From Methanofollis tationis (GTDB lineage Archaea > Halobacteriota > Methanomicrobia > Methanomicrobiales > Methanofollaceae), in NCBI RefSeq assembly GCF_013377755.1, contig NZ_JABXWR010000001.1:321104-385103 (forward strand): DNA of 64,000 nt, given 5' to 3'. Shown one piece after another: positions 8,144 to 27,441 of this stretch (position 1 is its first letter; each line of letters begins with the position of its first letter). Both the position numbers and the translations under genes were made by a program. The notes beneath the pieces are model-generated. The model searched no databases and was not told the DNA's origin. It saw nothing but the letters and a program-made list of their open reading frames with translations.

Positions 8144-9613
8144 ATGATGTATGCGGAAAAACTCGCTGTCCCGACGGCTCTCACCTTCGACGACGTTCTG
8201 CTCGTCCCCGCCGCCTCGTATGTGGAGCCGAACGACGCCGATGTGCACTCGATCTTCTCAAAGAACATCCCGTTGAATATCCCGCTCGTCTCGTCGGCGA
8301 TGGATACCGTGACCGAGGCGGGAATGGCGATCGCCATCGCCCGTCTCGGCGGCATCGGCGTCATTCACCGGAACATGCGGCCGGAACGTTCGGTGGACGA
8401 GGTGGTCAGGGTGAAGCGCGCCGAAGACCTGATCGAGCGCGAGGTGCTCTCGGTCGGCCCCGAGACCACCCTCTCCGAGGTTGAGGAGATGATGAACAAG
8501 CACGGTATCGGCGGCGTCCCGGTGATCGAGGACAAAAAACTCATCGGGATCGTCTCTCGCCGTGACATCAGGGCGATCGTGCACCGGCGCGGGAAAGAGT
8601 CGATCCGCACGATCATGACCCAGTTCCCGATCACGGCCCGGGAGGACGTCACCGCGGAGGCGGCGCTTGAGACGATGTACGCAAACAAGGTCGAGCGCCT
8701 GCCGGTCACGAACGGCGATGGCCGCCTCCTCGGGATCATCACGATGCAGGACATCCTGGAGAAGCGCTCGTACCCCCTTGCCAACCGCGATGCAAAGGGC
8801 AGCCTGCGCGTCGCCGCCGCCGTCGGCCCCTTCGACTTTGAACGGGCGACAATGCTCGACGAGGCAGGTGTCGACGCCCTGGTGGTGGACTGCGCCCACG
8901 GCCACAATATGCATGTGGTCAGGGCGGTGCGCGAGATCAAGGGGAGCGTGAAGGCCGACGTGGTCGCCGGCAACATCGCCACCTCAGAGGCGGCGATGGA
9001 GCTTGCCGACACCGTGGACGGGCTGAAGGTCGGGATCGGGCCTGGCTCGATCTGCACCACCCGGATCGTCGCCGGTGTCGGCGTCCCGCAGGTCTCGGCG
9101 ATCGCGAGTGTCGCCGACGTCGCCGCCCCGCTCGGGCTCCCGGTGATCGCCGACGGTGGTGTCCGCTATTCCGGGGATATCGCAAAGGCGATCGCCGCCG
9201 GTGCCAACGCGGTGATGATGGGCAGCCTCTTTGCCGGGACCGACGAGGCGCCCGGGCGGATCATCGCGATCCAGGGGCGCAAGTACAAGCAGTACCGCGG
9301 CATGGGCTCTCTGGGCGTGATGAGCCATGGCGAGTCCTCCGACCGCTACTTCCAGAAGAAGGGGATCGGCAGGACGAAATATGTCCCCGAGGGCGTTGAA
9401 GGGGCGATTCCCTACGTCGGGAACGTCTCCGACGTGATCTACCAGCTGGTGGGCGGGCTGAAGTCGGCGATGGGCTATACCGGCTCGGCCACGATCGACG
9501 ACCTGCGCACGAAGGGCAGGTTCGTGCGGATCACCGCAGCCGGGATGGGCGAGTCGCACCCGCACAATATCCTGATCACCGACGAGGCCCCGAACTACCG
9601 GCTGACCGGATGA
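8144..9613 (+). CDS. guaB: IMP dehydrogenase
   Basis: Oxidises IMP to XMP, the first committed step of GMP synthesis. The chosen start gives [20 protein letters not shown] and 489 residues, the standard size; an upstream extension inside mfnB is rejected. Two CBS domains interrupt the barrel (about residues 95-215). The catalytic cysteine lies in [17 protein letters not shown] (about residue 305), followed by [13 protein letters not shown] and the flap [17 protein letters not shown]. The gene begins 2 bp after mfnB. Confidence 0.96.
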
Positions 9614-9620
9614 TCTCCTT

Positions 9621-9654
9621 CTTTTTTATACTATTGACACTAACGTGAAGTAAA
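9621..9654 (+). promoter_or_regulatory. TATA box plus CTAAC-N5-GTAAA operator of the ArsR/Hsp20 operon
   Basis: CTTTTTTATA (9621-9630) is placed about 28 bp before the ATG at 9656, so the transcript should be nearly leaderless. CTAAC at 9640-9644 and GTAAA at 9650-9654 are five bases apart and cover the expected start of transcription. The same element with the same spacing from the TATA box lies in front of cdc48. It resembles the CTAAC-N5-GTTAG site reported for the Archaeoglobus heat-shock regulator HSR1. Confidence 0.7.
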
Positions 9655-9655
9655 G

Positions 9656-10288
9656 ATGTTTGATGATGGAGAGACCTCCCGTCTCCTTGATATCCTCGGC
9701 AACCGGAACCGGAGGCGTATCATCGATCTTCTCAGGCAGAAGCCCTGCTTTGTCACCGAGATCTCAGACAAGCTGATGATCTCGCCCAAGGCCGTGATAG
9801 AACATCTCCAGATGATGGAGGAGGAGCAGATCCTCTCCTCGTTCCATGACAACCGCCGGCGAAAATACTACAGCCTTACACGCGAGATCTGCATCGATAT
9901 CCGCTATGGCGGGGAAGACACGGCTCAGGCTGTTCAACCGGGCGGATCGCGTGAGGCGAAGTATCTCGCCGCCCTCTCGATGCTTGCCCGGATGCTCCGC
10001 ACGCGCGACACGCTCATCGCCAACCTCGAGGAGATCGAGCGCGATATCGATGCGCGGATGGACGAGGTCGTCAGGTACAGTCAGGACCTGCTCTCCAGCG
10101 AGACCGAGATGGACCTTGTGCTGGCACTCGCCCACTGCACACTCTCCCTCCGCGACCTTGAGGATTACACCGGCCTTGAGGCCGGGCCTGTGGAGCAGAT
10201 GCTCCAGGACCTGATGGTAAAAGATATCGTCGAACAGAACGGAAACCAGTACATGCTGCGTGGTCCCTATGCCGAACAACCCCTATGA
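9656..10288 (+). CDS. ArsR-family winged-helix regulator, HSR1-like
   Basis: This 210-residue protein has an N-terminal ArsR-type winged helix (residues 8-75: LLDILGNRNRRRIIDLL, then the recognition helix region ISPKAVIEHLQMME). A helical central section (residues 95-150) and a second small helical domain follow. It overlaps the start of an Hsp20-like gene by 20 bp. In Archaeoglobus a regulator of this type (HSR1) heads an operon with hsp20 and cdc48 and represses it. Here the operator-like site is present both at its own promoter and at cdc48, so a heat-shock repressor role is a good inference. No metal-binding cysteine pair is seen. Confidence 0.85.
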   Translation: MFDDGETSRLLDILGNRNRRRIIDLLRQKPCFVTEISDKLMISPKAVIEHLQMMEEEQILSSFHDNRRRKYYSLTREICIDIRYGGEDTAQAVQPGGSREAKYLAALSMLARMLRTRDTLIANLEEIERDIDARMDEVVRYSQDLLSSETEMDLVLALAHCTLSLRDLEDYTGLEAGPVEQMLQDLMVKDIVEQNGNQYMLRGPYAEQPL

Positions 10289-10679
10289 CGAGATATTCAG
10301 GAGCATTGCAAAGATCCTTGAAGACGTCCTCGGCGAGAACGGGGATCCGCCCAGAATCATCGGGTGCACGATCATCGCCTCGGGCGGTTCTCCTGGACGC
10401 GCCCCCGGACAGGACGATGCCGGCCCGGATATCTCGTACGAACTGACCGAGAGCGAACGGTGCGTCTATATCACGGCCCGGGTGCCGCCGGCCTGCGAGG
10501 GGCGGGCGTCGGCCGCGATCGGACCGGTGGCCGTCACCGTTAGGATGGGCGAACGGGAGGTGACGATCGATCTCGACGACGAGATCGATCCTGCTCAGAG
10601 CTCGGTCTCGGTGAACCATGGCGTGCTCGACGTGGTGTGCGTGAAACTACAGCCAGGGGATCCTGTAGCCTCTCTCTGA
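10269..10679 (+). CDS. Hsp20/alpha-crystallin-like domain protein
   Basis: With ATG 10269 this is a 136-residue protein; GTG 10260 is an alternative. The second half has the beta-sandwich pattern of small heat-shock proteins: ISYELTESERCVYITARVP followed by VTIDLDDEIDP and a closing NHGVLDVVCVKLQP, which parallels the usual NGVLEVxLxK strand. The first 45 residues are amphipathic. No C-terminal IxI tail is visible, so it may act as a monomer or dimer. The coupling to an HSR1-like regulator supports the assignment, but sequence similarity to Hsp20 is weak. Confidence 0.6.
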   Translation: MPNNPYDEIFRSIAKILEDVLGENGDPPRIIGCTIIASGGSPGRAPGQDDAGPDISYELTESERCVYITARVPPACEGRASAAIGPVAVTVRMGEREVTIDLDDEIDPAQSSVSVNHGVLDVVCVKLQPGDPVASL

Positions 10680-24950: not shown

Positions 24951-24985
24951 TCTTTTATATATTGGTATCACTAACTTTGAGTAAA
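24951..24985 (+). promoter_or_regulatory. cdc48 promoter with CTAAC-N5-GTAAA operator
   Basis: TCTTTTATATATT (24951-24963) is a strong TATA box. CTAAC at 24971-24975 and GTAAA at 24981-24985 are five bases apart. They sit about 14 bp behind the TATA centre, the same arrangement as in front of the ArsR/Hsp20 operon at 9.6 kb. A GGAG ribosome binding site precedes the ATG at 25009, so there is a short leader. Confidence 0.7.
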
Positions 24986-25008: not shown

Positions 25009-27441
25009 ATGCAGAAAGATCAGATTGAAGTAACGGTGAAGGAGGCCTACCACGAGGATGCCGGTCGGGGGATCGCACGCCTCGGCATGGACGTGATGAA
25101 GGCCCTCAACCTCGTTTCCGGCGATGTGATCGAGATCCAGGGCAAGCAGAAGGCCGCGGCCATCGTCTGGCCCGGCTATCCCGAGGACATCGGGAAAGGC
25201 ATCATCAGGATCGACGGCAACATCCGCGGCAACGCCCATACCGGCATCGACGACACTGTCAAAATCCGGAAGGTAGAGGCAAGCTACGGCCAGAAGGTCG
25301 TCTTCCAGCCGACCCAGCCGATCCGTCTCGTCGGCGGCGAACAGTACCTCAAGAGACTGATGAACGGCAGGCCGGTCGTCGAGGGGCAGACCTTCAGGAT
25401 CAACGTCCTGGGCAACCCCTTAACCTTCGTCGTCGCAAAGGTCTCGCCCAGGGGCATCGCGATCATCAACGACTCGACCGAGATCGAGCTGAAGGAGACG
25501 CCGTACAAACCCGAGGAGGGGAAGCGCAAGGAAGTCTCCGACGTCCACTACGAGGACATCGGCGGCCTCGGCCGCGAGCTCGACATGGTCAGGGAGATGA
25601 TCGAACTCCCGCTCAGGCACCCCGAGATCTTCGAGCGGCTTGGCATCGAGCCCCCGAAGGGCGTGCTCCTCTACGGCCCGCCGGGCACGGGCAAGACCCT
25701 GATCGCAAAGGCCGTCGCAAACGAGGTGGATGCCAACTTCATCTCCATCTCAGGCCCAGAGATCATGGGCAAGTACTATGGCGAGTCAGAGGAGCGGCTG
25801 CGCGAGGTCTTTGAGAAAGCGCAGGAGAACGCCCCGACGATCGTATTCATCGACGAGATCGACTCGATCGCCCCCAAGCGCGAGGAGACGAAGGGCGAGG
25901 TGGAGCGGCGGGTCGTCGCCCAGCTCCTCTCCTTGATGGACGGGCTCAAGACCCGTGGGCAGGTCGTCGTCATCGCGGCGACGAACATCCCTGACGCCAT
26001 CGACCCGGCCCTGCGCCGCGGCGGCCGGTTCGACCGCGAGATCGAGATCGGCATCCCTGACCGGAAGGGGCGGCACGAGATCTTCCAGGTGCACACCCGC
26101 GGCGTTCCCCTCGCGGAGAACGTCGACCTCCAGCACCTCGCCGATGTGACCCACGGCTTCGTCGGCGCCGACATCTCCCTCCTCGTAAAGGAGGCGGCGA
26201 TGCACGCCCTGCGGCAGGTGATCCCGAAGATCAAGATCGAGGAGGAGATCCCGGCCGAGTTGATCGAGAAACTGCGGGTCACCGGCGAAGACTTTGACGA
26301 GGCCAGAAAGCACGTCGAGCCCTCGGCGATGCGCGAGGTGCTCGTCGAGGTGCCGAACGTCTCCTGGGAGGACGTCGGCGGGCTCGAAGACGTGAAAGCA
26401 GAGCTCACCGAGGCGGTGGAATGGCCGCTGAAGTACCCCGAGGTGTTCACCCGGATGCAGACCAAACCGCCGAAGGGCATCCTTCTCTTCGGCCCGCCCG
26501 GGACGGGGAAGACCCTGCTCGCCAAAGCGACGGCGAACGAGAGCGAGTGCAATTTCATCTCGGTAAAGGGGCCTGAGCTCCTCTCGAAGTGGGTCGGCGA
26601 ATCTGAAAAGGGCGTGCGCGAGATCTTCCGCAAGGCGCGGCAGGCCTCTCCGTCGATCATCTTCTTCGATGAGATCGATGCCCTCGTGCCAAAGCGCGGC
26701 TCGTATGCGAACTCCTCGCACGTGACCGAAAGCGTCGTCTCCCAGCTCCTCACCGAGCTCGACGGGCTTGAGGAGCTCAAAAGCGTCATGGTCCTCGGTG
26801 CCACAAACCGCCCTGACATGCTCGACGACGCCCTCCTGCGCCCGGGCCGCCTCGACCGGATCGTCTATGTCCCTCCCCCTGACCTGGAGAGCCGGAAGAA
26901 GATCTTCGAGGTGTACCTGAAGGGCACCGAGGAGATGATGGCATCTGACGTCGGCATCGACGATCTTGTCGCCCGGAGTGACGGCTACGTCGGCGCCGAC
27001 ATCGAAGCGGTCGTCAGGGAGGCGAAACTCGCGGCGATGCGGGAGTTCATCGCGGCGATGAAGGGCAAGACTGCCGAGGAGCGCACCGATGCCATCGGCA
27101 ATGTCAGGGTCACGAAGAAGCACTTCGACACCGCCTTCGGAAAGGTGAAGGGCTCGCTCTCGCCTGAGAGCCTCGAAGAGTTCGAGCGGCTCTCCTGGGA
27201 GATCCTCTACTCCCACGAACAGCGTTCGGCCCTCGAAAAGGCCGCCGCCCTCGTCAAACGGGCCGGACTTGCGGCAGGGAAAGGTGGCGATGAGGTCGCA
27301 ACCCTCGCAGGAGATCTCAGGAAGGCGGTCTACGCGAGAACAAAAGATCTCGCCGGGATCAGGGCCCTCTCAGAAAAACTTGAAGCAGCACTCGAGAAGA
27401 AGAGGCCGGCAACCATTCCCGCGCCCATGCACGGGAGCTGA
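25009..27441 (+). CDS. cdc48: Cdc48/VAT-type AAA ATPase
   Basis: This 810-residue hexameric unfoldase moves proteins for degradation. It has an N-terminal double-psi barrel domain (about 1-180) and two AAA domains. D1 has Walker A GPPGTGKT at about residue 222 and Walker [12 protein letters not shown]2 has GPPGTGKT at about residue 494 and [10 protein letters not shown]. Arginine fingers are expected in RRGGRFD and RPGRLD. The C-terminus ends in PAPMHGS without an HbYX motif, so docking to the proteasome is not obvious. Shared promoter elements suggest control with the Hsp20-like operon. Confidence 0.97.

Follow-up and report, generated by a model that had tools for sequence, protein, structure and literature searches.

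A predicted HSR1-type heat-shock regulon in three separate units in Methanofollis tationis and its conservation across the Methanomicrobiales

INTRODUCTION

To our knowledge, archaeal heat-shock control rests on two characterised proteins, Phr and HSR1. Phr has the operator TTTA / TGGTAA / AAAA and acts by blocking the recruitment of RNA polymerase, and HSR1 of Archaeoglobus is reported to bind CTAAC-N5-GTTAG and to autoregulate (PMC9133787). Both proteins have been placed in one orthologous group, arCOG01684 (PMC5852551). Our literature searches, with subscription journals mostly outside their coverage, did not turn up a description of such a regulon under HSR1 in the order Methanomicrobiales.

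Here we analysed a stretch of 64,000 nucleotides from the genome of Methanofollis tationis (contig NZ_JABXWR010000001.1, positions 321,104 to 385,103), referred to below as the window. A first-pass annotation of this DNA had proposed an HSR1-type heat-shock site at the promoter of an ArsR-family gene, and this proposal is supported by the rarity of the motif, its conservation at orthologous promoters and a comparison with Archaeoglobales. Judged from sequence, the site at 9640-9654 is very probably the autoregulatory operator of an HSR1-type heat-shock repressor, within a regulon that is split into three units.

RESULTS

Predicted HSR1-type operators at the regulator, cdc48 and hsp20 promoters

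Direct reading of positions 9622-9656 bore out the claim of a CTAAC-N5-GTAAA site behind the TATA box of the ArsR-family gene. The promoter has the forward-strand layout TTTTTTATA-N9-CTAACGTGAAGTAAA (9622-9654), with the TATA box TTTTTTATA at 9622..9630 and the HSR1-type operator CTAACGTGAAGTAAA, CTAAC-GTGAA-GTAAA, at 9640..9654; the operator was located by pattern search and is kept in orthologous promoters. A single base separates its end at 9654 from the ATG of the regulator gene at 9656. The left half-site CTAAC and the N5 spacing match the HSR1 site exactly, and the right half-site, GTAAA, differs in two bases from the GTTAG reported for Archaeoglobus, a form that several relatives do carry. 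The upstream neighbour on the same strand is guaB, encoding IMP dehydrogenase (8147..9613; identified from its open reading frame and sequence), whose stop codon ends 26 bases 5′ of the operator. The operator is predicted to cover the transcription start region of the regulator gene and to serve as its site of autoregulation.

The same element had also been proposed at cdc48, and we found it there as CTAACTTTGAGTAAA, CTAAC-TTTGA-GTAAA, at 24971..24985 on the forward strand, again by pattern search and again kept in orthologues. This promoter repeats the layout seen at the regulator, TTTTATATA-N9-CTAACTTTGAGTAAA (24953-24985), with the TATA box TTTTATATA at 24953..24961 and the gene start at 25009. 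The cdc48 gene (25009..27441, forward strand) encodes a VCP-like AAA ATPase of 810 aa that matches the TIGR01243 CDC48 model with 1051.9 bits, above the cut-off.

The strict pattern CTAAC-N5-GTWAR occurred twice in the window (at 9640 and 24971), compared to 0.07 occurrences expected from shuffles. The full palindrome CTAAC-N5-GTTAG, allowing up to two mismatches, showed no enrichment (6 in the window, with 8.45 expected), and the case therefore rests on placement and conservation and not on raw count. Frequent occurrence of the motif elsewhere had been named as a possible refutation. We scanned the whole genome and found CTAAC-N5-GTWAR at five distinct places (six when strands are counted) in 2.25 Mb, compared to 35 matches for a reversed control pattern, which indicates that the motif is rare and that its placement is not due to chance. 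Three of the five places were linked to a TATA box, namely those at the hsr1-type regulator, cdc48 and hsp20, and a relaxed TATA-linked pattern likewise returned only these three promoters in the M. tationis genome. The remaining two places (L003 and L005) showed no recognisable TATA box or gene start at promoter distance.

The third TATA-linked site, at C1:1928151 outside the window, has the sequence TTTAC-TCTCT-GTTAG and lies in reverse orientation directly behind the TATA box of a true hsp20 gene (G000:C1:1928200-1928661, in L004; PF00011, E 3.6e-15). The first-pass annotation had recognised two units, the ArsR gene and cdc48; both of these sites are real, but this third unit was missed.

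Two further observations concern these places. The site in L005 (G000:C2:9303-9317) is a perfect palindrome, CTAACTTAAGGTTAG, located on a 31-kb second contig, where it lies near the apparent 3′ end of a tRNA gene and has no clear promoter context. A predicted membrane protein (L004:722-1426, minus strand), for which no Pfam match was found, is encoded divergently from hsp20 across the operator and might share its control; a similar gene is present at this place in genus g16 (L329, L344).

Conservation across the order

The regulator was present in 114 of the 120 genomes of the order, and in 98 of 98 good genomes. Absence of the site at orthologues was another outcome that had been said to speak against the proposal. 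In promoters of the order that were gathered by protein search only, none being selected by motif, an N5 site departing from CTWAC-N5-GTWAG at no more than one base was kept at 54/64 regulator, 28/29 cdc48 and 28/30 hsp20 promoters. The numbers expected from shuffled promoter sets were 0.50, 0.20 and 0.15, respectively, and N4 and N6 spacing controls on the same promoter sets gave no sites in five of six cases and one site in the sixth. Across orthologous promoters the half-sites were near-invariant and the spacer was variable. At cdc48 and hsp20 the site lay 20-54 bases from the start codon, with its distance to the TATA box kept. In a set of relatives that includes loci fetched by the motif itself, the distance from the TATA start to the beginning of the site was mostly 15-18 bases, and at the regulator mostly 15 or 17, both where the start codon followed after 1 base and where it followed after 50. 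In this set the C-terminus of guaB (DEAPNY) preceded the regulator in at least 51 of 77 cases.

Among the 118 TATA-linked sites listed from the 120 genomes, 94 were directly 5′ of the regulator (46), cdc48 (31) or hsp20 (17). The other 24 included another cdc48 (L196) and another hsp20 (L209), both missed by coordinate matching, as well as TATA-linked sites at genes for ClpB (L212, in G096; TIGR03346, 1094 bits on an open reading frame cut by the locus end) and for the proteasome-activating nucleotidase, PAN (L053, in G024). The sequences of the latter two loci suggest lineage-specific additions to the regulon. Separately, in two genomes of genus g17 (L039, L197), a TATA-linked CTAACATAAAGTTA was seen before the gene for a conserved predicted membrane protein of 112 aa.

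In genus g16, the site takes the form of the palindrome CTTAC-N5-GTAAG at both the regulator and the hsp20 promoters, and a shift at both would fit operators that track changes in one protein. We also note CTTAC-N5-GTAAG about 20 bases before the gene for a conserved 84-85 aa protein of winged-helix appearance in this genus (L326, L343, L333); this gene is possibly a further target there.

The regulator protein

The regulator gene (9656..10288, forward strand) encodes an ArsR-family protein of 210 aa (PF01022, E 3.4e-10) with N- and C-terminal winged helices, both of which are present in its structure model. For comparison with HSR1 we used Archaeoglobales other than A. fulgidus DSM 4304. By hhalign, the profile of the order's regulators matched this HSR1 set with a probability of 99.9% (E 1.6e-34), and the 187 aligned columns take in the C-terminal winged helix. 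Searched against the M. tationis genome, the Archaeoglobales profile gave 79.2 bits for the regulator and 17.4 bits for the next protein, and the match was reciprocally best; the genome has no second protein similar to HSR1 along its whole length. By homology, the regulator is of the HSR1 type and would act as a heat-shock repressor.

The nearest solved relative by sequence is Phr 2p4w (E 2.5e-14; E 3.7e-21 in a profile search; second in the fold search), and the sequence match to it stops at residue 145-149. Identity as Phr was rejected, as the match to NCBIfam NF053602 (Phr_regulator; E 6.6e-19) reached 68.2 bits compared to a cut-off of 320. By inspection, the Phr operator TTTA / TGGTAA / AAAA does not occur as such at 9640-9654.

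A CS-domain gene beside the regulator

The gene that follows (10269..10679, forward strand) shares 20 bases with the regulator gene and is probably co-transcribed with it. Its product was assigned to the CS domain (p23/alpha-crystallin fold) with a PF04969 match of 19.4 bits, below the cut-off, and the domain was matched weakly in 9 of 35 orthologues (best E 6.8e-5). A profile search identified the alpha-crystallin domain (ACD) of Hsp20.1 (4rzk, E 2.1e-6), and Foldseek, run with a model whose pLDDT is about 90 or more in the CS domain, returned the CS domain of Sgt1 (E 9.3e-5), the Hsp20.1 ACD (E 9.5e-4) and also Hsp16 structures. There was no match to Pfam HSP20 (PF00011), and a single-sequence search of solved structures found no relative. 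The weak CS matches, together with the ACD profile match and the Sgt1 and Hsp16 fold matches, point to a protein of the Hsp20 fold that is CS/p23-like. The product of the gene that the first-pass annotation described as Hsp20-like and coupled to the ArsR gene is a CS-domain protein and neither a Pfam HSP20 member nor the main Hsp20.

In most of the order the CS-domain gene comes next after the regulator, but no such neighbour was found in genus g16. The protein might be dedicated to HSR1 as a co-chaperone, sensing unfolded protein and controlling release of the repressor, although we regard such a role as unlikely. If true, it would constitute a feedback loop that the Archaeoglobus operon, with cdc48 at this place, does not have.

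Gene order in more distant archaea

When named genomes were searched with a profile of the distant family f9, the matches fell in Archaeoglobales and, at greater distance, in Methanosarcina and one Methanocellales genome (L256). TATA-CTAAC-N5-GTTAG was found directly 5′ of the regulator in nearly all Archaeoglobales loci and in the Methanocellales locus. In these loci the regulator is followed by cdc48, with hsp20 after cdc48 in most. This site is the one reported for HSR1 (PMC9133787). The gene order that the first-pass annotation gave with it, hsp20-cdc48, is corrected to hsr1-cdc48-hsp20. We note that the operator in Archaeoglobales (L216-L247) is usually extended as GTTAGTAAC, so that TAAC is repeated once more behind the right half-site. 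The distant families f16 and f19 have the site before a linked regulator-cdc48 pair, and guaB-like sequence lies upstream of the site. The regulator-cdc48 linkage is also kept in Methanosarcina (L258-L281), but CTAAC-N5-GTTAG is absent at these loci. The site is thus not universal among homologues, and in Methanosarcina it must have changed or been lost.

An hsr1-cdc48-hsp20 operon is not present in the M. tationis genome, where the three genes occupy three separate loci. The suggestion that the heat-shock regulon exists here in split form gains support from the single operator that Archaeoglobales and Methanocellales carry before hsr1-cdc48-hsp20. Since the signal is found at three promoters and is kept across the order, the ancestral operon seems to have broken up into separately placed genes, each piece with its operator, which is the economical reading of these sequences. 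We infer the direction of change, from operon to split units, from the distribution, and the split layout is treated here as derived and not as a defining feature of the HSR1 protein family.

DISCUSSION

What we observed directly on the genomes is where the sites lie, how rare they are, that they are conserved and that the protein is a homologue of HSR1. Binding, repression, release upon heat shock and any role of the CS-domain protein are what we infer, in the following form. A repressor dimer would occupy the CTAAC and GTWAR half-sites, N5 apart, between the TATA box and the transcription start. At normal temperature, the bound repressor would prevent RNA polymerase from joining the TBP/TFB promoter complex, as for Phr. 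Its release upon heat shock would then allow expression of three units, the first comprising hsr1 and the CS-domain gene (9656-10679), the second cdc48 (25009-27441) and the third hsp20 (G000:C1:1928200-1928661).

Sequence gives no direction of control, and the protein could instead activate, or toggle between repression and activation, with the site helping to recruit polymerase upon heat shock. Archaeal repressors usually act between the TATA box and the start codon, where activators rarely do, and the site described here lies in just this interval, mostly at the spacing of 15-18 bases after the TATA start noted above. Phr, in a similar layout, blocks polymerase recruitment (PMC9133787). We consider activation, or such toggling, improbable on these grounds.

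Autoregulation is an assumption carried over from Archaeoglobus, so that the sites might be real proteostasis operators on which another transcription factor acts, with the adjacent ArsR-family protein as a target only. This is very unlikely, since regulator gene and operator are linked in Archaeoglobales and Methanocellales as well as in the order studied here, and since the M. tationis genome has a single full-length HSR1-like protein; moreover, binding of this sequence by Archaeoglobus HSR1 has been reported (PMC9133787). That the motif serves the lineage as a general element of promoters or start regions (initiator, leader or ribosome-binding), a notion to which the abutment of the regulator site on the start codon lends some appeal, is rejected with near certainty by the count of five places in 2.25 Mb, by the cdc48 and hsp20 sites that lie 20-54 bases from the start at a constant TATA distance, and by the occurrence of both orientations, the hsp20 site of M. 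tationis being reversed.

With an HSR1-type repressor as the preferred reading, a whole order gains a predicted HSR1 regulon with precise operators. It also clearly exemplifies the apparent break-up of an operon with every fragment keeping an operator. Within one lineage (g16) operators appear to drift together, and some genomes would have added proteostasis targets (ClpB, PAN).

The protein encoded at 10269-10679 resembles the Sgt1, p23 and Hsp20 alpha-crystallin domains in its predicted beta-sandwich, but falls below the Pfam CS cut-off. The system as a whole resembles that of Phr of Pyrococcus furiosus (2p4w) in its regulon, which pairs a small heat-shock protein with an AAA+ ATPase, and in having its operator at the start site, whereas the sites themselves differ, TTTA / TGGTAA / AAAA for Phr and CTAAC-N5-GTWAR here. 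With the HSR1 regulon of Archaeoglobus fulgidus it shares an ArsR-type regulator that carries another winged helix at its C-terminus, an operator behind the TATA box of the regulator's own gene, and regulator, Cdc48 and Hsp20 as its three functions, joined into a regulon here at the level of sites. It differs from that regulon in the GTAAA right half-site in the window, in the CS-domain gene that stands where Archaeoglobales have cdc48, and in its arrangement as three separate units with one site each, where Archaeoglobus has one operon.
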